From Centipeda felix (lineage in GTDB: Bacteria > Bacillota > Negativicutes > Selenomonadales > Selenomonadaceae): a stretch of 64,000 nucleotides of DNA. Both the position numbers and the translations under genes were made by a program. Positions 148-9,674 of the stretch are shown one piece after another. Location: positions 48,564-112,563 of the forward strand of contig NZ_LT891956.1 in NCBI RefSeq assembly GCF_900186465.1, read 5' to 3'. Under the pieces are notes generated by a model. That model saw only the letters and a list, made by a program, of their open reading frames with translations, had not been told where the DNA came from and ran no database searches. Every line of letters begins with the position of its first letter. Position 1 is the stretch's first letter.

Positions 148-722
148 CCCTTCTGCGGCAGGGTGAGACCGTGGCGCGCCGCCATCACGGTCGCCGCATG
201 GTCGCCGAGCGTGCCCGAGACGATGATGTCCATGCCCGCCGTGATGTTCGTCGGCGCGATATCCGCCCCCGCGAGCATCGTCCCGACACCTGCCGTATTG
301 ATGTAGATGCCATCGCCGCAGCCACGCGGCACGACCTTCGTATCGCCCGTCACGATGGAGACACCCGCCTCCTCTGCCGCCGCCGCAATGTCCGCGACGA
401 TGCGGCGCAGCGCGGCGATGGGAAAGCCCTCCTCAAGGATGACGGCGAGCGAGAGATATGCGGGCGCCGCCCCCGTCATGGAGAGATCGTTGACCGTCCC
501 GCAGACGGCGAGCCGCCCGATGCTCCCTCCGGGGAAGAAATGCGGCTGTACAACATAGGAGTCCGTCGTAAACGCCGTGCGGCCCGTGAGCGGCAGTACC
601 GCACCGTCGTGCAGAACGTTCAGCAGCGTGTTGCCGAGCGCGGGCAGAACGACCTCCTCCATGAGCGCATGGGAGAGCTGTCCGCCCGCCCCATGTGCCA
701 TGGTAATCACATCATGCTCCAT
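148..722 (-). CDS. hypE: HypE, carbamoyl dehydratase for hydrogenase maturation (3' end lost)
   Basis: Begins MEHDVITMAHGAGGQ, typical of HypE, which dehydrates the HypF-delivered C-terminal thiocarboxamide to the thiocyanate that supplies CN ligands to the [NiFe] site. The visible 191 residues include the PurM-like N-terminal domain (TDSYVVQPHFFPGGSIG, NDLSMTGA, GDTKVVPRG, GTLGDHAATVMAARHGL). The family is about 330-340 residues, so the C-terminal ATP-binding half and the terminal cysteine are missing. The frame stays open to the window edge, but only through the mosaic-end 12-mer and unrelated hypF sequence. The start overlaps the hypD stop by 11 nt, with GGAGG upstream. Confidence 0.85.
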
Positions 723-1815
723 AGTGGAACCTCCCTCCGCCGTACTTGTACCACGCGGCGCACGTCCCCTCGACCGACACCATGCAGGGGCCGACAGCGT
801 GCTCCGGCACACATGCCCGACCAAAGAGCGCACATTCCTTCGGCAGGATCGCCCCGCGCAGCACCTCGCCGCAGCGGCAGCCGCGCCGCCCCTCGATGCG
901 CGTCTCGATCGTGAGCGGGCGCACAGCGGCAAAGTCATAGGCACAGTACGCCTCGCGCATCGCAAGGCCCGAGGCTGGGATCATGCCGAGTCCGCGCCAT
1001 GCCGTCTCCGCCGGCTCATAGACGCGCTCCATCGCCGCGCGCGCTGCCGGATTCCCCGCAGGCTGCACGACGGACGGGTAGGCGTTCTCGATGCGCGCCG
1101 CCCCCGCTGCGATCTGGCGGACGAGCATCTGCAGGGCGGTGAGAATCTCCAGCGGCGCAAAGCCGCCGACCACACCGGGCACATGGTAGTCCTCCGCGAG
1201 GAAGGAAAATGCCTCCGTCCCCGTCACGACGGCGACGTGCCCCGGCAGGAGAAAGCCGTCCACGTGCGTCTCACCGCCGTCGAGCAGGGCGCGCATGACG
1301 GGCGGCACAAGTTTCTGCGCCGAGAGCAGGAAGAAGTTCCTGCGCCCCTGCTGCTCTGCCGCGAGCACCGCAGCCGCCTCCGTCGGCGCAGTGGTTTCAA
1401 ATCCGACGGCGAGGAAGATCACCTTTTTCTCAGGATGCTCTGCCGCAATGGGGAGCGCGTCGAGCGGCGAGTAGACGATGCGCACGTCCGCCCCCGCCGC
1501 CTGCGCCTCGGCGAGACTTGAGCGCGTCCCCGGAACTTTCAGCATATCGCCGAACGTCGTGATGATGACATCCTCCATCCCTGCATACGCAATCGCCGCG
1601 TCGATGTAGCTGTCGGGGGTCACGCAGACGGGACAGCCCGGCCCTGAGACCAGCTCGACCTCGGGCGGAAGGATCTGGCGCAGCCCCGCGCGAAAGATCG
1701 CGACGGTATGCGTCCCGCAGACCTCCATGATGCGGATATGCCGCCCCGCGAGCAGACAACGCATCTCATCGAGGATCGCCCGACTCTCCGCCTGCATCTC
1801 CTGTGTGCGGGTCAT
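712..1815 (-). CDS. hypD: HypD, hydrogenase Fe(CN)2CO assembly protein
   Basis: 367 residues, full length for HypD, the [4Fe-4S] scaffold that with HypC assembles the Fe(CN)2CO group of [NiFe] hydrogenases. Visible family motifs are CGTH near residues 33-36, GPGCPVC near 58-64 and GFETT near 138, with a cysteine-rich C-terminal third (RRGCRCGEVLRG, CALFGRACVPEHAVGPCMVS). It overlaps hypC by 4 nt (ATGA) and hypE by 11 nt, so translational coupling is likely. It lies in the minus-strand hydrogenase maturation operon. Confidence 0.97.
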   Translation of the reverse strand: MTRTQEMQAESRAILDEMRCLLAGRHIRIMEVCGTHTVAIFRAGLRQILPPEVELVSGPGCPVCVTPDSYIDAAIAYAGMEDVIITTFGDMLKVPGTRSSLAEAQAAGADVRIVYSPLDALPIAAEHPEKKVIFLAVGFETTAPTEAAAVLAAEQQGRRNFFLLSAQKLVPPVMRALLDGGETHVDGFLLPGHVAVVTGTEAFSFLAEDYHVPGVVGGFAPLEILTALQMLVRQIAAGAARIENAYPSVVQPAGNPAARAAMERVYEPAETAWRGLGMIPASGLAMREAYCAYDFAAVRPLTIETRIEGRRGCRCGEVLRGAILPKECALFGRACVPEHAVGPCMVSVEGTCAAWYKYGGGRFHYGA

Positions 1816-2075
1816 GCCATGTGCTCCATGCGCGGCGTATCGATGTGCGTCACCGTGCGCGGCGCACCGTTCATCTCCGCGCGCAGTGCCTCAATGCGCT
1901 CCATCTCCGCGGGATCGACGATCTGCATCGCAAAGCCCGCATGGACGAGCACGAAGTCTCCCACCTTCGCCTCGGGCAGGAGCATGAGGCTCGCCGCACG
2001 GCGCACCCCCTGCACCTCCACCGAGGCGAGCTGATCCTCTATTTCAACGACTTTCGCCGGAACTGCTAAACACAT
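1812..2075 (-). CDS. hypC: HypC, hydrogenase maturation chaperone
   Basis: 87 residues beginning MCLAVPAKVVEI, the HypC/HybG signature in which Cys2 (after Met removal) coordinates the iron precursor. HypC partners HypD and delivers the Fe(CN)2CO unit to the hydrogenase large-subunit precursor. The core HAGFAMQIVD is also family-typical. A GGAAGG-like site precedes the start. The gene overlaps hypD by 4 nt and is separated from hypF by about 315 bp filled with GC-rich dispersed repeats, so it may need readthrough of that region. Confidence 0.95.
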   Translation of the reverse strand: MCLAVPAKVVEIEDQLASVEVQGVRRAASLMLLPEAKVGDFVLVHAGFAMQIVDPAEMERIEALRAEMNGAPRTVTHIDTPRMEHMA

Positions 2076-2390: not shown

Positions 2391-3457
2391 CTATGCGTGC
2401 TGCGAATGAACCATCCGCGCGAGCGCCACAGCCGCCTGCCCGTAGGCAATGCCGCCGTCGTTCGGCGGAACGCGGTGCGGCAGGAGCACATGATAGCCGC
2501 CGATGCGCGGCAGAAGCTCCTCCAGGAGAAGCGCGTTCTGGAACACGCCGCCCGCGAGGGCGACCGTGCGCAGCCCCGTCCGCACCGAAAGGATGCCAAG
2601 CACCTCGGCGACCGCCGCCGCCATCGTCACGTGAAAGTCCAGCGCGCGTCCCGCACGCTCCTCCACGGTCAGCGCCTCCGCCCCATCCCAGAGCTAGTTG
2701 GTTTTTTTCTTTTAACATACCGCCACCCCCTAAGTACCCCCCTTTTCCCCTCCCCGCCACTTTTCCAATTTTCTGCTGAATAGCCCGCGCCCTTTCTCTT
2801 ATCCCCATCTCCGCCCGCCTGCACCCCGCCGTTGACGAGGAGGCGATAGGCGGGGCCGCACGCGGCGCACGCATTCGGCTGCGCGTGAAAGCGGCGGTCG
2901 CGCGGATCGTCGTACTCACGCTGACAGGCGGGACACATCGGAAACACCGCCATCGAAGTCAGCGGACGATCGTACGGAACGCCGCGGATGATCGAGTAGC
3001 GCGGGCCGCAGTTCGTGCAGTTCGTAAAGGCATAGCCATACCGCCGATCCGCTGCCGACAGGATCTCGCGCCGACAGTCCGCACAGACCGCAAGATCAGG
3101 CGATACAAGCGTCGCTGCCCGCGTCCCCGCGGGGCTCGGCAGGATGCGGAACGTCCGCTCCCCGCATGGCATGACCGCCTGCCACGTCACCGCCGTTACC
3201 ACTGCCGCACGCGGCGCATCGTCTGCGAGAGCGACGGCAAAGGCGTCGAGTGCCGCCGCCGTCCCTTCCGCCTCGATGCCGACTCCCGCGCTGTCGTTCA
3301 GCACCCAGCCGCTGAGTGCATACTCCTCCGCGAGACGATAGACAAAGGGACGATAGCCCACCCCCTGCACAATCCCCGAGACACGAAAGGCGCGCCGCTC
3401 GGCGGCGCCCCCCTCCGTATGTACTGCGGTATGTGCCGCGCCCGTCATCTTAGGCAT
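2391..3457 (-). pseudogene. hypF: HypF carbamoyltransferase, middle missing
   Basis: HypF (about 750 residues) makes the carbamoyl group for the hydrogenase CN ligands. The N-terminal piece (about 3457 to 2831) has the acylphosphatase motif RVSGIVQGVGYRPFVYRLAEE and two zinc fingers (CADC...CTNC; CPAC...CAAC). The C-terminal piece (about 2696 to 2391) has the Kae1-like end ALAGGVFQNALLLEELL...PPNDGGIAYGQAA and a normal stop. About 440 central residues, including the YrdC-like domain and most of the Kae1 domain, are absent. They are replaced by ~134 bp of unrelated low-complexity sequence, and the pieces are in different frames. A functional operon would need intact HypF, so misassembly is at least as likely as real decay. 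Possible starts are 3457 or 3448; neither has a clear ribosome site. Confidence 0.85.
2697..2830. other. Unrelated ~134-bp filler inside hypF
   Basis: Homopolymer-rich sequence (runs of T, C and A) unlike the flanking hypF codons. It contains CTTTCTCTTATC at 2792-2803, which matches 10 of the 12 bases of the Tn5-mosaic-end-like string found at 136. It replaces the missing central part of hypF. No gene is recognisable in it. Confidence 0.6.
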
Positions 3458-3968
3458 ACGGTACGGCACGCGGCGCGAGCCGAACGCCCCACGCGCGCAG
3501 CTCCTCGGCCGCACGCTGCGCGAACGCGGGCAGGGCCGCCTCCATCGCAGGGCTCATCGTCAGCCCCGCCGACAGATCGTAGGGCTGCATCCCGAGCACG
3601 ACCACGTTCGGGATCGCCCGATCCGTCACCGTCAGCCACGCGAGCACATCCTGTATGCCGATCTCGTGCGATGAGACCTTTTCCTGAAAATGCGCCATGA
3701 TCGCATCATCCTCAAAGCGGTACGCCGTCCCCGGAGCACCGTCACCCGAGACCGCGTCGAGAATCAGCAGATGCTGTGTCCCCGTGACGAAGTGCAGCAG
3801 CTCGGGTCCGAGCGTCCCGCCGTCGAGCAGGCGCACCTCATCCTCGGAGAACGCCCAGTGCTGCTCCAGATACTCCATCGCGCGCACGCCGAACCCCTCG
3901 TCGCGCAGAATGATATTGCCGATGCCGAGTACGGTCACAGGCGCAACGGGTACAATCGACTCCTCCAT
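3450..3968 (-). CDS. hyaD: [NiFe]-hydrogenase maturation protease (HyaD/HybD type)
   Basis: 172 residues from MEESIVPVAPVTVLGIGN. This M52-family endopeptidase removes the C-terminal tail of the large subunit after nickel insertion. Ni-sensing acidic and histidine residues are visible in GNIILRDEGFG, LLDGGTLG and SSHEIGIQD. The start at 3968 overlaps the hypB stop by one base (TGATG), with GGAGGT seven bases upstream, which favours it over a longer start at 4019. Its probable substrate is the large subunit encoded at 6172-8085 in the same operon. Confidence 0.93.
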   Translation of the reverse strand: MEESIVPVAPVTVLGIGNIILRDEGFGVRAMEYLEQHWAFSEDEVRLLDGGTLGPELLHFVTGTQHLLILDAVSGDGAPGTAYRFEDDAIMAHFQEKVSSHEIGIQDVLAWLTVTDRAIPNVVVLGMQPYDLSAGLTMSPAMEAALPAFAQRAAEELRAWGVRLAPRAVPYA

Positions 3969-4639
3969 CAGCGCACCTCCTTCCCCGCCTTCTTTGCCGC
4001 CACCTGCGCACGCAGCCACGCATACCAGTCCGCGAGACCCTCGCCCGTCTGACAGGAGACAGGAAAGATCGCGATCCCGGGATGCAGGGCTGTGATGTCC
4101 GCACGCGCCGACGCCATATCGAAATTCGTATACGGGAGAATATCCACCTTGCTGAGGACAGCCGCCGCCGACTCCTTGAAGATCAGCGGGTACTTCAGCG
4201 GCTTGTCGTCCCCCTCCGTGATGCTCAGAACGACCGCCTTCTCATCCTCGCCGAGCGCGAACTCGGCAGGGCAGACGAGATTTCCGACGTTCTCGATCAC
4301 GAGGAGATCGAGCGCGTCGAGATCGAGGCGGTCGAGTGCCGCCGCGACCATCGCCGCGTCGAGATGACAGCCGCCGCTCGTATTGATCTGCACGACAGGC
4401 GCGCCGCAGCGCTCGATGCGTGCCGCATCCTTCGTCGTAAAGAGATCCCCCTCCACAACTGCCACGCGCAGATCACCCGCGAGCTCCTGCAGCGTCTGCT
4501 CGAGCAGCGACGTCTTGCCCGCGCCCGGCGAGCCGAGCAGATTCAGCGCATAGATCCCATGCTGCGCAAAGAGCGCCGCGTTCTCCGCCGCCGCCGCATC
4601 GTTGCGCCCTAGAATGTCTGCTTTTACAACTACTTTCAT
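3968..4639 (-). CDS. hypB: HypB, GTPase for nickel insertion
   Basis: 223 residues with P-loop GSPGAGKTS near residues 36-44, ENVGNLVCPAEF in the metal-binding GTPase region and SKVDILPY for guanine recognition. HypB works with HypA to load nickel into the hydrogenase large subunit. It lacks both a histidine-rich N-terminus and the N-terminal CxxCGC nickel motif of E. coli HypB. That motif instead appears on the separate small protein two genes upstream (4984-5226). Four bases separate it from hypA. Confidence 0.96.
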   Translation of the reverse strand: MKVVVKADILGRNDAAAAENAALFAQHGIYALNLLGSPGAGKTSLLEQTLQELAGDLRVAVVEGDLFTTKDAARIERCGAPVVQINTSGGCHLDAAMVAAALDRLDLDALDLLVIENVGNLVCPAEFALGEDEKAVVLSITEGDDKPLKYPLIFKESAAAVLSKVDILPYTNFDMASARADITALHPGIAIFPVSCQTGEGLADWYAWLRAQVAAKKAGKEVR

Positions 4640-4643
4640 CGCT

Positions 4644-4982
4644 CTATTCCATCTCTATAAAATCCACGCGCATCTCGCGGCCGCCGATGATCTCCATTCC
4701 GCCGCCGCAATGGGGGCAGAGGTAGTCCTGCGGTCGGATGTGCTGCTCCCTGCCGCAGTCGTGACAGCGCCCCGTGAGGGGGACGCGCTCCCAGGTGAGC
4801 ACGGCATCTGCCGCGATCGTGTCCGCCGTAAGGGAGGAAAAACACAGCGAAAGCGCATCGGTCTCCACGCCCGACAATTCGCCGAGCAGGAGGCCGATGC
4901 GCTCGATGCGCGCTGCGCCATTTTTCTGTGCATAGTCCAGGGCAATATCCAAAATGCCCTCGGCAATCGCCATTTCGTGCAT
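4644..4982 (-). CDS. hypA: HypA, hydrogenase nickel metallochaperone
   Basis: 112 residues starting MHEMAIAEGILDIAL, where His2 is the conserved nickel ligand. The zinc-ribbon cysteines are CHDC and CPHC near residues 73-76 and 87-90. HypA receives nickel and passes it with HypB to the apo-large subunit. The start at 4982 is one base after the stop of the upstream small protein (TAAGATG), so a longer in-frame start at 5015 is unlikely. Confidence 0.96.
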   Translation of the reverse strand: MHEMAIAEGILDIALDYAQKNGAARIERIGLLLGELSGVETDALSLCFSSLTADTIAADAVLTWERVPLTGRCHDCGREQHIRPQDYLCPHCGGGMEIIGGREMRVDFIEME

Positions 4983-4983
4983 C

Positions 4984-5226
4984 TTAGAGCTCCGCCGAAA
5001 GCCCATGTGCGGCAAAGGTACTGATGAGCTCCGTCATCTTCGTCTTTGCCGGGTCATAGTCCACGGTCGTCTCCCCGTCGTGCGTGTGGATGTGCACGTA
5101 GAGGACGCCGGGCAGCCCCAGGAGCGCCTTCTCCACAGCGGCGGCATTCTCCTCGGTGTAGCCCTTCACAAAAAACTGTAGATGCGTCGTGCTCTCTGCG
5201 AGCCCGCAGCCGCATTCTTTACACAT
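4984..5226 (-). CDS. Small CxxCGCG + heavy-metal-associated-fold protein
   Basis: 80 residues. The N-terminus MCKECGCGLAE has the CxxCGC motif that binds nickel at the N-terminus of many HypB proteins. The rest (HLQFFVKGYTEENAAAVEKAL, PGVLYVHIHTHDGETTVDYDP) has the beta-alpha-beta pattern of an HMA ferredoxin-like metal chaperone, but without the usual internal CxxC. It directly precedes hypA and is one base from it. Because HypB here lacks the CxxCGC element, I infer a detached nickel-delivery module. Family membership beyond HMA-like is not certain. Confidence 0.75.
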   Translation of the reverse strand: MCKECGCGLAESTTHLQFFVKGYTEENAAAVEKALLGLPGVLYVHIHTHDGETTVDYDPAKTKMTELISTFAAHGLSAEL

Positions 5227-5310
5227 AGAAAACTCCTTTATCTCCTAACAAAAGCATATTGCTTGCGTAACAGAAACACTCATCGGTGCAAGGGTGCCTG
5301 ATTGATCAAA

Positions 5311-5432
5311 GCGCCCCCACCGACGCGCAAGCGCGCCACCTCCCCCGTAGCGACGGGGGAGGCGAATCCACCGTTCATCGAGTGCCTCCCCTGTCACAGC
5401 GGGGGAGGGGGACCGCGAAGCGGTGGAAGGGG
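5311..5432. repeat. GC-rich imperfect palindrome between hydrogenase and hyp genes
   Basis: GCGCCCCCACC...GGTGGAAGGGGCGC forms the outer arms and CCTCCCCCGT...ACGGGGGAGG an inner hairpin. It belongs to the same dispersed family as the units near 2140 and 36641. It separates the structural genes from the hyp genes and could act as an mRNA stabiliser or partial terminator. Confidence 0.75.
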
Positions 5433-5474: not shown

Positions 5475-6158
5475 TTACTCCACGTCGTTGACATCCGCCG
5501 GGGTATGGCGCAGGAGCTTCGAGCCTGCGAACATGCTCGAGACCTCTGCCTCGCCCTCCATGAACTCAGCGCGGATGACCATGTAGAAATGGCCGATGGC
5601 AAAGAGAATGATCGCCCATGCCGCATAGTGATGCACATAGTGCGAGATCATCTCGCCGCCGAGCACGCGGTTCACCCAGCCGAAGAGCGTCCCGCCGATC
5701 GCAGACGGCTCCGTCATGTAGTACATGGCAAAGCCCGTCAGCACCTCGATTGCCACGAGCACGTAGAGCCCTGCGTACGATCCGCGTGCGAGCGGGTTGC
5801 GCAGAAACGGCTTGTGCGTCGCCTTGATCAGCATATAGTGCTGCGCCACTTCCATCGTGTCCGTGTAGTACTGCTTCTCCCAGAAATGCGGGAAAAGGCG
5901 GTCGCCGCGGTTGATGATAAAGCCGTAAACGCGGCCGATGAAGCCCGCGCAGAAGGCAAACGCCGCGATGAAGTGGACGTTGCGCGTCACATTCATCAGG
6001 AGCGGCGACGCATCCGGCTCCGCATACAGCATCGCAGGTGGCTTCGTGATGAGGAAGCCCGTGATGAAGAGCACGATGATCGCAATGACCATCAGCCAAT
6101 GGAAGATGCGCAGAAAGGGACTAAAGAGATAGTACTCCTTGCGTACTTCTTGTTTCAT
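5475..6158 (-). CDS. hyaC: [NiFe]-hydrogenase b-type cytochrome subunit
   Basis: 227 residues with about four membrane spans (roughly 15-40, 60-82, 127-150 and 180-200). Candidate heme-b histidines are in RIFHWLMV, NVHFIAAF, HYVHHYAAW and GHFYMVI. HyaC/HybB-like cytochromes anchor the exported hydrogenase and pass electrons from H2 to the quinone pool. It follows the large subunit by 13 bp, as usual for group 1 uptake hydrogenases. Confidence 0.93.
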   Translation of the reverse strand: MKQEVRKEYYLFSPFLRIFHWLMVIAIIVLFITGFLITKPPAMLYAEPDASPLLMNVTRNVHFIAAFAFCAGFIGRVYGFIINRGDRLFPHFWEKQYYTDTMEVAQHYMLIKATHKPFLRNPLARGSYAGLYVLVAIEVLTGFAMYYMTEPSAIGGTLFGWVNRVLGGEMISHYVHHYAAWAIILFAIGHFYMVIRAEFMEGEAEVSSMFAGSKLLRHTPADVNDVE

Positions 6159-6171
6159 GCGGTTCGCCCCC

Positions 6172-8085
6172 TTATTTATCGACGCTGACGCCCGCGTATG
6201 GATCGGTCGTCACAACGCGGATCTTCTCCCCCTTCGCGTTGAAGAGGTGGGTCGAGCACGCCATGCACGGGTCAAACGAGCGGACCGCCTTGACGATCTC
6301 GAGCGGCTTGTCTGCGACCTTGACGGGCGTATCCATCATCGCGAGCTCGTATGCGCCGTGTCCCTCGGCATCGTCGCGCGGGCAGGCATTCCACGTCGTC
6401 GGGACGACCGCCTGATAGTTCGCGATCTTGCCGTCCTTGATGACCGCCCAGTGGCTGAGTGCGCCGCGCGGTGCCTCGTAGAGACCGACGCCCTTTGCCT
6501 CCTTCGGCCAGGTCGAGGGATCCCACTTGTCGTTGTTCACCACGCGCGTATCGCCGCTCTTGATGTTTGCGACGAGCTTGTCGAAGAAATACTTGCTGAT
6601 CTCCGCCTGCAGCTGTGCATCGAGCGCACGCGCCGCCGTGCGTCCGACCGTGGAGGGCAGCCATGCCTCGACGGGGACGTTCAGCACCTTCGTCACGGCA
6701 TCGATCTGATCGACGATCATCTGCTCTGCCCACGTCAGGTCACCGAGGAGGCCCTGCTTTGCCTTCGTGTAGAGGACGATGTAGCGTGCCAGGGGGCCGA
6801 CCTCGCAGAGCTTGCCGCGCCATTTCGGCGTCTTGAGCCAGGAGTACTTGCCCTGCTCGTTGAGCGCCTTCCACTCGGTCTTCGTGCCTTCCTTCGGCTC
6901 CGTGTAGTGCGGGGTCGTCTCGCCCTCCCACGGATGGAGTGCCTTGTCGTCGCCGCCCTTGTACTCGTACCAGCCGTGCTCGACGCTCTCTGCGACGCCG
7001 TCGGCATCCGTCAGATCCTTCTCCGTAAAGTCATAGACCTTCGCATTCATGACGCCCGAAGCAAAGTCCTCGACGACGCCGTTGCAGCGCACGAGGAGGT
7101 TCTTGAAGAAGTCGCCGTTCGTCGCACCCGAGAACGGCTCCTCGGAGAACATGCCGAAGGCGAGCACGCGCTTTTTCGCGAGGCCGCCGCCCGAGGTGTA
7201 GCCCTTCTGGACGTAGAGATGTCCGATGGCGAGCACGTCGGGGAGATAGTAGTCGTTCATCATGTGGCGTGCCTGATTGATCGAGCGGTCAACGATCGCG
7301 AGGCGCGCTGCATTGATCGGCGCGTTGCCGTCCTCCATCGAGATGGAGCATGGCATGCCGCCAAGCACATAGTGCGGATGCGGGTTCTTTCCGCCGAAGA
7401 CGACGTGCGGGACGACGAGATCCTTCTGCTTGTCGAGCATCTCGAGGTAGTGCGAGATCGCCATGAGATGCACCTCGGGCGGGAGGAGCTGATAGTCCGG
7501 ATGATCCCACCACTGCGCGGAGAAGATGCCGAGCTGACCGCTGTCGACGATCTTCTGCACCTTTGCCTTGATCGCGGCGTAATAGGTGGGCGATGCGATC
7601 GGGAAGTCGTGCGGGTAGGCATCCGTGTCGAATGCCGCAGGCCCGCGGAAGGGGAGGCGATAGGTCTGGAGCACCGTGTTCTGGAGCGCCGCCGTCGCCG
7701 CCGGATCCGCCTTCAGCGCCTCGAGCGGGCTGACCCAGTCGAGCGCGTGGAGGTGGTAGAAATGGATGATGTGATCCTGATGCCCGAGGCACGCCGCAAT
7801 GATGTTGCGGATGTAGTGCGCGTTCTTTGGGATCGTGATGCCGAATGCGTCCTCGACGGCACGCAGACAGCCGAGTGCATGAGAGGATGTGCAGACGCCG
7901 CAGATGCGCTGAATGTATGCCCATGCATCGCGCGGATCGCGGTCGTTCATGACGAGCTCAAGGCCGCGCCATGCCGTGCCAGAGGAGATGGCATCGGTGA
8001 CCTTGCCCGATGCCTCGTCCACCTGCAGCTCAACGCGCAGATGTCCCTCAATACGGGTGATTGGGTCGACAACGACGTGTTTCAT
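6172..8085 (-). CDS. hyaB: [NiFe]-hydrogenase large subunit (group 1 uptake type)
   Basis: 637 residues. The proximal Ni-Fe ligand motif is RICGVCTSSHALGCLRAVEDAF near residues 60-80, and the distal motif is DPCMACSTH near the C-terminus. After that His a tail of 24 residues remains, the peptide expected to be removed by the maturation protease at 3450-3968. It starts MKHVVVDPITRIEGHLRVE with no signal peptide, so it should be exported piggyback with the Tat-signalled small subunit. The 4-nt overlap with that gene suggests translational coupling. Confidence 0.97.
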   Translation of the reverse strand: MKHVVVDPITRIEGHLRVELQVDEASGKVTDAISSGTAWRGLELVMNDRDPRDAWAYIQRICGVCTSSHALGCLRAVEDAFGITIPKNAHYIRNIIAACLGHQDHIIHFYHLHALDWVSPLEALKADPAATAALQNTVLQTYRLPFRGPAAFDTDAYPHDFPIASPTYYAAIKAKVQKIVDSGQLGIFSAQWWDHPDYQLLPPEVHLMAISHYLEMLDKQKDLVVPHVVFGGKNPHPHYVLGGMPCSISMEDGNAPINAARLAIVDRSINQARHMMNDYYLPDVLAIGHLYVQKGYTSGGGLAKKRVLAFGMFSEEPFSGATNGDFFKNLLVRCNGVVEDFASGVMNAKVYDFTEKDLTDADGVAESVEHGWYEYKGGDDKALHPWEGETTPHYTEPKEGTKTEWKALNEQGKYSWLKTPKWRGKLCEVGPLARYIVLYTKAKQGLLGDLTWAEQMIVDQIDAVTKVLNVPVEAWLPSTVGRTAARALDAQLQAEISKYFFDKLVANIKSGDTRVVNNDKWDPSTWPKEAKGVGLYEAPRGALSHWAVIKDGKIANYQAVVPTTWNACPRDDAEGHGAYELAMMDTPVKVADKPLEIVKAVRSFDPCMACSTHLFNAKGEKIRVVTTDPYAGVSVDK

Positions 8086-9170
8086 TCATGCACCTGCTTT
8101 CCCTCTTTTTCGAGCTGCTTCTCATGGCATCTCTTCTGTACAAGGCTCGCGCCCGCGTGCGCCGCAACACCGACTGCCGTTGCGACGGCAAGGCCTGCGC
8201 CGACCATGTCGACATCGATGCCGTTGTACTCCGGCAGACGCTTCGAGAACGGCGCCTGATCCCAGAAGTTCGCGTTGCTGCAGCCAATACAGGGTGCGCC
8301 CGACTGGATGGGGTACGAGAGTCCCTGATACCAGCGCAGATTGCCGCAGGAGTTGTACGTCTCGGGGCCGCGGCAGCCGAGCTTGTAGAGGCACCAGCCC
8401 CCCTTTGCACCCGCGTCGTCAAAGCGCTCGGCAAACATGCCTGCGTCGAAGAACGGACGGCGGTAGCAGGTGTCGTGAATGCGGTTGCCGTAGAACTGAC
8501 GCGGACGTCCCTCGCCGTCAAGCGGCGGCAGTGTGCCGAAGAGCGCAACGTGCATAACGACGCCTGTCATAACCTCGGGAATCGGCGGACAGCCGGGCAC
8601 AGCAATATAGGGCTTCGCGCCGATGAGGGAACGGATCCCCCTGGACTCCGTCGGATTCGGTGCAGCCGCCTGGATGCCGCCCGCCGTCGCGCACGTGCCG
8701 TAGGCGATGACCGCCTTTGCTCCCTCCGCGGCGTGCTTCAGCGTATGCTCGAAGGAGTGACCGCCCGACATGCAGGTGTAGGCGTGCTCCCCGATGGGAA
8801 CCGCGCCCTCGACGGCAAGGATGTACTCGCCATGATACTTCTTGATCGTCTCCTCGAGATGTGCCTCGAACGCCTCACCCTCGCCGGCGCAGAGGAGATG
8901 GCTGTATTCGAGCGCAATCTCGTTCAGCACGAGATCCGATGCGAGTGGTGCGCCCGAGCGGATGAACGACTCATCGCAGCCCGTACACTCATGCCCGTGC
9001 AGCCAGATCACAACCGGCAGCGGCTTCGCCTCGGCGGCCTCGACGACCTTCGTGAGGTTGTCTGTGCTCAGCCCCATGAGCGACGTGAGGGTCACGCAGC
9101 CCTTGAGGAAATTCCGCCGGCTGAAGCCTTTTGCGAGATATGCCTCCCACAAGCTCTCCCTTTTGTTCAC
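8082..9170 (-). CDS. hyaA: [NiFe]-hydrogenase small subunit with Tat signal
   Basis: 362 residues from a GTG at 9170 preceded by AGGAGG. The first ATG nearby (ATGTGA) is out of frame, and longer starts lack a ribosome site. The Tat signal is SRRNFLKG near residues 18-25. Iron-sulfur ligands include CTGCDES, GTCATAGG, PGCPPIPE and the C-terminal cluster cysteines (DTCYRR, GWCLYKLGCRG, APCIGCSN). A C-terminal hydrophobic span (MVGAGLAVATAVGVAAHAG) anchors it. It oxidises H2 at the cytoplasmic membrane with the large subunit and cytochrome b. Confidence 0.95.
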   Translation of the reverse strand: MNKRESLWEAYLAKGFSRRNFLKGCVTLTSLMGLSTDNLTKVVEAAEAKPLPVVIWLHGHECTGCDESFIRSGAPLASDLVLNEIALEYSHLLCAGEGEAFEAHLEETIKKYHGEYILAVEGAVPIGEHAYTCMSGGHSFEHTLKHAAEGAKAVIAYGTCATAGGIQAAAPNPTESRGIRSLIGAKPYIAVPGCPPIPEVMTGVVMHVALFGTLPPLDGEGRPRQFYGNRIHDTCYRRPFFDAGMFAERFDDAGAKGGWCLYKLGCRGPETYNSCGNLRWYQGLSYPIQSGAPCIGCSNANFWDQAPFSKRLPEYNGIDVDMVGAGLAVATAVGVAAHAGASLVQKRCHEKQLEKEGKQVHE

Positions 9171-9674
9171 ATTATGCCTCCTGTCCCTATGGAAGACTGC
9201 CGTCATGCCAAACACCCGCATCCATCCCGCCGCGATCGGCACACAGACACCTTTGCGAGCAGAACGACAGGGCGATTGACAACAGAAACTCGCGTCAATA
9301 CTTCCCACACATCAGATATATAAAACCAATCCCGCGAAAGCCAGGGCCCTTCCGTACAAAATAATAAAGGAGGAGCCGTCCGACGCACCCGAGGGCACGA
9401 CAAACAGTCCCTCGTAGCAGACGAATCCAAGGGATATTTTGCATCAAAATATCCCCTCCTCGCCCTTGCGCGGCAATGTTGTCGTTTCCTTTTCAAGGGA
9501 GCGTGGTTTTCTGCAGGAAACCGCGTTCGGAAGGGAGGCTCCGGCATTTCTGCCGAACCCCTGTGCACTGCAGGGATCACTCCCTGCGGCGCAGGCGCAG
9601 CATCATAGGCATCGCCCTTAGATGCTTTTGCTCGGAAACCGAGAGGTACAATGTACCTCTATACCTATGTAATT
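9171..9674 (-). promoter_or_regulatory. Long structured 5' leader of the hydrogenase operon
   Basis: About 500 nt lie between the promoter and the small-subunit start. On the minus strand there are successive hairpins: GAGGTAC/GTACCTC (about 9643-9659), AGCATC/GATGCT (about 9598-9625), CAGGGA-type and CGGCA/TGCCG stems (9541-9590), GGTTTTC/GAAAACC (about 9500-9530), a perfect 11-bp stem GGGATATTTTG/CAAAATATCCC (9430-9454) and CGAGGG/CCCTCG near 9390-9412 followed by a U-rich stretch. Such a leader suggests RNA-level control, for example a riboswitch or attenuator. I could not match it to a known class from memory. Confidence 0.55.

Follow-up and report, generated by a model that had tools for sequence, protein, structure and literature searches.

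A small HMA-fold protein with a HypB-like cysteine tail: a candidate nickel carrier of the Selenomonadaceae

The high-affinity nickel ligands of Escherichia coli HypB are Cys2, Cys5, Cys7 and the N-terminal amine, according to PMC7055735. The same residues, Met1-Cys2-x-x-Cys5-Gly6-Cys7 at the extreme N-terminus, and a similar nickel and hydrogenase context are found in Centipeda felix on a separate 80-residue protein with an HMA fold, whereas in E. coli-type HypB the site is carried on the GTPase. The gene of this protein, called the small gene here, lies directly before hypA in a stretch of 64,000 nucleotides (assembly GCF_900186465.1, contig NZ_LT891956.1, positions 48,564 to 112,563 of the forward strand) that was analysed as a whole and is referred to as the window; coordinates are those of the window. 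SlyD, a nickel donor to HypB, is an accessory nickel binder, as is proposed for the small protein, but belongs to the FKBP-type prolyl isomerases, binds nickel through its C-terminal domain and has an unrelated fold. PMC11198818 describes it as a nickel provider for nickel-enzyme biogenesis. CooT, a nickel protein of carbon monoxide dehydrogenase (CODH), is likewise small and encoded with a nickel enzyme, and Cys2 is implicated in its nickel binding; it is described in PMC6006190 as having seven beta elements, in contrast to the HMA fold and three-cysteine tail of the small protein. In fold, the small protein resembles the CopZ/CsoZ/Atx1-like HMA copper chaperones (Foldseek E 3e-5 to CopZ 2qif, TMt ~0.9), distant relatives of which in the same class also carry the MCxxCGC head. 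Unlike these chaperones, it has HxHxHDG in the beta2-beta3 loop and no GMxCxxC loop, and nickel gene neighbours and a promoter element are found on its side of the comparison. A literature search, with most subscription papers outside its coverage, found no description of the small protein or of the promoter element.

The small protein is likely a cytoplasmic nickel metallochaperone, or a buffer, placed between nickel uptake and nickel-enzyme maturation, and it is probably an undescribed nickel carrier and not a piece cut from HypB. Its sequence combines a CopZ-like HMA scaffold lacking the copper CxxC, an MCxxCGC tail and HxHxHDG in the beta2-beta3 loop, while its gene is found in linkage with those for hydrogenase, Nik-type transport and CODH maturation, and some members of the family have a promoter element in common with nik-like operons. 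This shared promoter element is the best evidence for the nickel reading.

Sequence, fold and spread of the small protein

4984..5226, minus strand: small gene, MCxxCGC tail and degenerate HMA domain, 80 aa (sequence, HMM, model)
5203..5226, minus strand: codons 1-8, MCKECGCG, with Cys2, Cys5 and Cys7 at the positions of the E. coli HypB high-affinity nickel site
5074..5094, minus strand: codons 45-51, HIHTHDG, conserved histidine cluster in the beta2-beta3 loop, between strands 41-46 and 52-57
5233..5239, minus strand: likely ribosome-binding site AAAGGAG of the small gene (sequence)

The product, MCKECGCGLAEST...VLYVHIHTHDGE..., contains only three cysteines, all inside the N-terminal MCKECGCG. 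Because AAAGGAG stands 6 nt before the ATG and the hypA ATG follows the stop codon after a gap of 1 nt, the start is fixed and Cys2 is the true second residue; the 1-nt gap also suggests that the small gene and hypA are translationally coupled. The tail, with a free N-terminus as judged from the sequence and the likely ribosome-binding site, matches the HypB site residue for residue, which was counted for the nickel reading, and it is encoded by a separate gene that is not joined to a HypB GTPase. A degenerate DNA pattern encoding MCxxCGC has a single match in the window's genome, at the small gene; across 21 genomes it has 28, compared with 0 for the control, so that this start is not due to chance; 19 of the 28 belong by coordinates to the small-protein family (one being a remnant in genome G236, described below), and the remaining 9 are unassigned.

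The PF00403 (HMA) score is just under the cut-off (24.1 versus 24.8 bits). The AlphaFold2 model has the order beta-alpha-beta-beta-alpha-beta (strands 14-21, 41-46, 52-57 and 77-79, helices 25-36 and 64-73), with a mean pLDDT of 88 and a low-confidence tail (~49), and its top PDB matches in Foldseek are CopZ, CsoZ and MerP. Model and matches together indicate an HMA fold, and the original prediction that the gene before hypA encodes MCKECGCG followed by an HMA-like fold without the internal CxxC is borne out. The protein nevertheless falls outside the definition of CopZ, since CxxC is absent and the best NCBIfam CopZ model scores far below its cut-off (24.5 versus 91 bits); the GMxCxxC metal-binding loop was found neither in the window protein nor in any relative with a VHxH motif. 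It is also a non-member of NF053667 (HypB_prefix_1), which it matches weakly over residues 1-56 (E 0.1, 14 bits versus a cut-off of 30). Its residues suggest an independent equivalent of the HypB tail, mounted on the scaffold of a copper chaperone, and, having the HypB-tail residues without being HypB, it may be classed as an HMA protein turned to nickel. What places it among candidate nickel metallochaperones is the linkage of its gene to those for nickel import and for the maturation of nickel enzymes. In HMA topology the beta2-beta3 loop is at the same end as the CxxC loop, and the N-terminal tail starts at the opposite end. The tail would bind Ni(II) with the ligand set of E. coli HypB (Cys2, Cys5, Cys7 and the N-terminal amine), and the histidine loop would supply a second metal site; the protein would then either deliver nickel that has been taken up to HypA/HypB, in some cases also to other nickel enzymes, or hold it in between.

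Family matches at E<=0.01, the weaker of which are partly CopZ-like, occur in 160 of 300 class genomes. A profile of 16 rows (A1) finds 147 of the 300 at E<=1e-8; matches at E<=1e-16 are taken as the strong group, and the weaker relatives are mostly CopZ-like and also include two hup-operon copies of genus g17 (E ~1e-11) and the copy in G022. The residues M1, C2, C5, C7, G22, L38, G40, V44, H45, H47, D50, G51 and P59 are invariant in the 16 rows. Among 142 distinct locus proteins, a set biased by its selection through the small-protein query, VHxH and an internal CxxC never occur together (113 with VHxH only, 21 with CxxC only, 8 with neither), and this exclusion was counted for the nickel reading. 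MCxxCGC is present in 13 of the 21 CxxC proteins, and 6 of the 21 are CopA-type ATPases. The 112 VHxH proteins shorter than 130 aa show HxHxH in 108 cases and an MCxxCGC start in 111. In a tree of 81 columns and 56 rows, whose midpoint rooting does not give the direction of change, the CxxC group and three "other" rows are set off by one starred branch (96/84). As drawn, VHxH is not one clade and requires 3 changes, and a single origin of the VHxH group may still hold. The genus g17 version (L238:6912-7181 and L239:3496-3765; L denotes loci and G genomes) has a His-rich insert, NHEHQHDHE or NHDHHHDHD, directly after MCATCGCG. Viral homologues were also considered, and of 35 stretches that fit the pattern, 0 were confirmed.

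A promoter element shared with nickel-uptake genes

Upstream of standalone copies of the small gene (38 examined), CCC-N4-GGGGCTT is seen ~17 bp before a TATAAT-like box, in 27 stretches by a loose regular expression and in 21 by a strict one. In full, the element reads AATCCCC-N4-GGGGCTT and forms an imperfect inverted repeat next to the likely -35 box. In eight genomes, AACCCTGCGCGGGGCTTGT with up to 2 mismatches gave 10 matches versus 0 in the control; 7 are at the small gene, and the other three lie directly before nikD-nikE-like genes, before a short open reading frame (ORF) followed by a nikA-like gene, and at a contig end. The exact gapped pattern ATCCC-N3..6-GGGGCTT was then matched 26 times in 20 of 60 hand-chosen family genomes (6 of them, the window's genome among these, from the window's genus), compared with 1 control match. 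Genes resembling nikA, nikB or nikD lie downstream at 16 of the 26 (L332-L337, L339-L343, L351-L353, L355 and L356), "nik" here meaning BLAST similarity to L250 or L090 proteins. The small gene is downstream at 7 (L338, L344, L345, L346, L348, L349 and L354, with L344, L346 and L354 assigned by coordinates), a cbiM-like gene at one (L350), and a methyltransferase-like gene at one (L347), 56% identical to one in the L250 nik operon; at L330 a contig end makes the downstream side unreadable. The nikB and nikC products of L250 pass NCBIfam nickel cut-offs, and those of its nikA, nikD and nikE and of four tested L090 genes do not.

The pattern was built from small-gene promoters and the first nik matches, so not every match is independent; 8 nik matches come from 7 genomes beyond the first eight (G029, G167 twice, G257, G265, G276, G280 and G289). 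In G224 and G255 the run hupL-cytB-[small gene]-hypA-hypB contains the element, placed between cytB and the small gene, so that the nik-type promoter setting and the hydrogenase operon setting meet. The window holds two loose matches, both far from the small gene. At five loci (L336, L339, L341, L343 and L351) one short ORF stands between the element and the nik-like gene; these ORFs, of 122-165 aa and several with an exported-protein-like start, precede nikA- or nikD-like genes and are possibly nickel-uptake components. A methyltransferase-like protein, recognised by eye, is encoded in nik-like operons (L250:6290-6997, L165:9854-10579) and once alone behind the element (L347:1580-2332).

Gene neighbourhoods and the hydrogenase operon

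A contig scan found 137 relatives, of which 80 loci were kept, from Selenomonas, Mitsuokella, Megamonas, Propionispira, Quinella, Schwartzia, Selenomonadaceae/Selenomonadales and a few "Veillonellaceae" metagenome-assembled genomes. The small gene has hupL, hypA or hypB beside it in 37 of the 80 and none of these in 43, some on short contigs. In L251 and L257 it stands beside hupL-cytB with hypAB absent from the stretch. Among the 43, 25 share one crcB/pncA context (20 with the loose promoter element); in the others, a nik operon encloses the small gene in L160, a nikE-like gene comes after it in L177 and L180, a nik-like operon faces it in L155 and L165, hypD-hypE come before it in L157, and 12 loci have other neighbours. 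In G258 the order is nikB-nikC-nikA-nikD-[small gene]-nikE, the small gene being separated from its two neighbours by 2 and 0 nt; of these nik genes, nikB and nikC exceed the NCBIfam cut-offs for nickel, and nikA, nikD and nikE do not. In G044 the small gene is downstream of a nik-type operon, whose tested genes have nickel models among their best matches and none above cut-off, and in G059 it follows hypE in a run of CODH, a CbiA-type ATPase (cooC-like), hypC-hypD, one further gene and hypE. In L084 (7617-8870), a CODH operon encodes a 417-aa fusion of HypC and HypD.

Outside the family there are 20 strong loci in 17 genomes, and a nickel-related gene lies within ~5 kb at 13 of them (7 in line on the same strand). 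These surroundings include, besides those in G044 and G059, hup-hyp loci in four genomes (G001, G004, G012 and G042) and nik-type genes ~2.4 kb after the small gene in G038. A divergent member in G022 stands directly after hypBCDE. By comparison, nik, hup, hyp, lar and CODH genes were found at none of 12 CopZ-like control loci, and cbiM lay ~5.4 kb off at one; ABC-ATPase matches of 26-35% identity were disregarded for strong and control loci alike. In L076 (4880-9430) a co-directional run consists of cbiM, a small membrane protein, an SDR, an [FeFe] hydrogenase, a small Tat-like protein, a cytochrome b and the small gene, CbiM and the hydrogenase being Pfam-tested and the rest named by eye.

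In the window, the order is hupS-hupL-cytB-[small gene]-hypA-hypB-hyaD-(hypF remnants)-hypC-hypD:

8082..9308, minus strand: hydrogenase small subunit hupS (by eye, from sequence and operon position)
6172..8085, minus strand: hydrogenase large subunit hupL (by eye, from sequence and operon position; homologues recur in the same order)
5475..6158, minus strand: hydrogenase cytochrome b subunit, cytB (TIGR02125 above cut-off)
4644..4982, minus strand: hypA (PF01155, 5e-29, submitted from 4979; start MHEMAIAEG)
3968..4639, minus strand: hypB, GTPase domain only (TIGR00073, 7.9e-78, 260.8 bits)
3450..3968, minus strand: hyaD-type hydrogenase maturation protease (PF01750, TIGR00140/TIGR00072, submitted from 3971)
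1812..2075, minus strand: hypC (PF01455)
712..1815, minus strand: hypD (PF01924)

A protein identical to the small-gene product is present in Selenomonas flueggei ATCC 43531 (L102). At 2391-3514 on the minus strand, hypF is internally deleted, keeping profile positions 2-188 and 654-739 of 741, and no match anywhere in the window's genome reaches the TIGR00143 (hypF) cut-off. At the equivalent place L103-L109 have a continuous stop-free match of ~760 aa, L240 has one stop, and hypF in L102 is split in two; the window strain may have lost NiFe cofactor synthesis, or the assembly may be wrong at hypF. Neither this deletion nor the conserved HxHxHDG (residues 45-51) formed part of the original prediction. 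Dispersed GC-rich intergenic repeats occur at 5-135, 2317-2447, 2123-2206, 2299-2351 and 5371-5422, comprising a 131-nt direct pair that is 96% alike and copies of 52-53 nt, direct and inverted; similar-looking sequence also lies between cytB and hypA in G236.

In that genome, from the same genus as the window, the HMA part is deleted and MCKECGCG is kept, joined in frame to HypA by a linker of 26 residues (L240:7272-7709). Among the matches listed (189 family genomes, 155 with a match), this is the only one spanning the whole query without stops. The ribosome site of HypA itself persists, so the reading frame may represent either a remnant in decay or a functional fusion; the part retained is exactly the proposed nickel grip.

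Weighing the nickel reading

The most serious rival is a nickel buffer, store or sensor accessory of Nik uptake that limits free nickel without delivering it to HypA/HypB. The promoter element in common with nik-like operons, the placement inside one of them, the two possible metal sites and the many standalone copies would all suit such a role, which is possible but unlikely given that the recurrent position between hydrogenase cytB and hypA, the position after hypE and the co-occurrence with HypB point to maturation. In the family (n=109, the two g17 copies counted as carriers), 93 genomes have both the small gene and HypB, 1 the small gene only (G258, which has HypA), 3 HypB only and 12 neither; outside it, 16 of 17 strong carriers have HypB, compared with 102 of all 191 genomes there. 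The Fisher p values, which ignore the kinship of the genomes, are 2e-12 and 2e-4, respectively. The suggestion that the protein is a nickel module for HypA/HypB is thus supported as to nickel and as to the association with HypA/HypB (HypB in 93 of 94 family carriers and 16 of 17 outside carriers, and 37 of the 80 loci), and proved too narrow in scope, as the links reach Nik uptake and a CODH operon and more than half of the loci (43 of 80) lack the hydrogenase and hyp neighbours, wide occurrence without hyp genes having been named beforehand as an observation against it.

The original prediction went on to propose that the motif had moved out of HypB, the high-affinity nickel module having split off to a separate protein that restores the missing head of HypB. 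The window's HypB does consist of the GTPase domain alone, beginning MKVVVKADILG without a Cys-rich head, the M-C-x-x-C-G-C positions are identical to those of E. coli HypB, the small gene adjoins hypA-hypB in hup operons, and the HypB_prefix_1 match, weak as it is, lies in the same direction. HypB was found in 198 of 300 class genomes and in 54 of 119 in the phylum draw. However, CxxCGC occurs in 0 of 136 distinct HypB sequences fetched from the class and the wider phylum (29 phylum-draw ORFs included), as searched by CxxCxC before the P-loop or, for sequences whose P-loop a first regular expression did not find, within the initial 60 residues of the open frame; a second expression also gave 0, with the P-loop not located in 23 of the 136. 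GTPase-only HypB is therefore the rule in the sampled set, and nothing here points to a motif-bearing ancestor. A "type 1" HypB without the N-terminal region has already been described (PMC10134865). At genome level, 109 of 111 carriers have HypB, which was counted for the nickel reading. CopZ-like relatives with CxxC also start MCxxCGC, L251 and L257 keep the gene with hupL-cytB and no hypAB, and a strong match is lacking in 86 of the 102 genomes outside the family that have HypB, so the small protein is no general replacement of a missing HypB part. No fused HMA-HypB protein was noticed in the fetched loci, where no dedicated search was made and other phyla were not covered. A split HypB module is thus improbable and was rejected on the 0 of 136; the nickel part of the earlier interpretation is strongly supported, and a move from HypB is not.

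A cobalt protein is also hard to credit, even though Nik-type transporters can carry cobalt, cbiM lies downstream of the element in L350 and CbiM is encoded in the gene run of L076, because the enzymes to which the hydrogenase, hyp and CODH-maturation genes link it depend on nickel and both permeases above cut-off match nickel models. Least probable is an ordinary copper (CopZ/CsoZ-like) or other soft-metal chaperone present in hydrogenase operons by accident, for which the fold, the mostly copper-chaperone structural matches and the existence of class relatives with both GMxCxxC and MCxxCGC speak, against the absence of CxxC from all VHxH members and the nickel-uptake or nickel-enzyme genes at the element and in many neighbourhoods.

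Several observations weigh against the nickel carrier reading itself. Even the loose element is absent from 11 of the 38 upstream stretches, and the exact element was found neither in the window's genome nor in 5 other members of its genus, being absent from 40 of the 60 genomes overall; most nik labels, moreover, rest on BLAST similarity to L250 or L090. Four genus g61 copies keep the tail and lack the His cluster. The 25 loci of the crcB/pncA context have no nickel neighbour, nor do 7 of the 20 strong loci outside the family, and 3 of 96 HypB genomes in the family (G236, G278 and G283) lack the small gene. In G074, a genome in which HypB was not detected, an [FeFe] hydrogenase gene stands upstream of one copy, and cbiM is further upstream. 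Five loci (G054 twice, G079, G087 and G091) are neighbours of larA-like or larC genes (by Pfam in L071 and L074, by BLAST in the others), all convergent and hence not co-transcribed, and lend weak support only.

A fuller form of the nickel carrier reading, on which the evidence is evenly balanced, is that of an undescribed nickel metallochaperone family derived from a CopZ-type copper chaperone. The CxxC would have been replaced by the HxHxH loop, and the MCxxCGC tail, already on CopZ-like relatives, would serve as a HypB-like Ni(II) grip, so that the family would be the connection between Nik uptake on one side and HypA/HypB and other nickel enzymes on the other; in some of the Selenomonadaceae, a sensor reading AATCCCC-N4-GGGGCTT beside the -35 box would control it together with nik operons. 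For the route of nickel from the importer to HypA/HypB, where HypB has no high-affinity head, the small-protein family is a concrete candidate. If true, it would be a case in which an HMA fold had passed from copper to nickel, and the shared element predicts a nickel sensor in rumen and gut Negativicutes.

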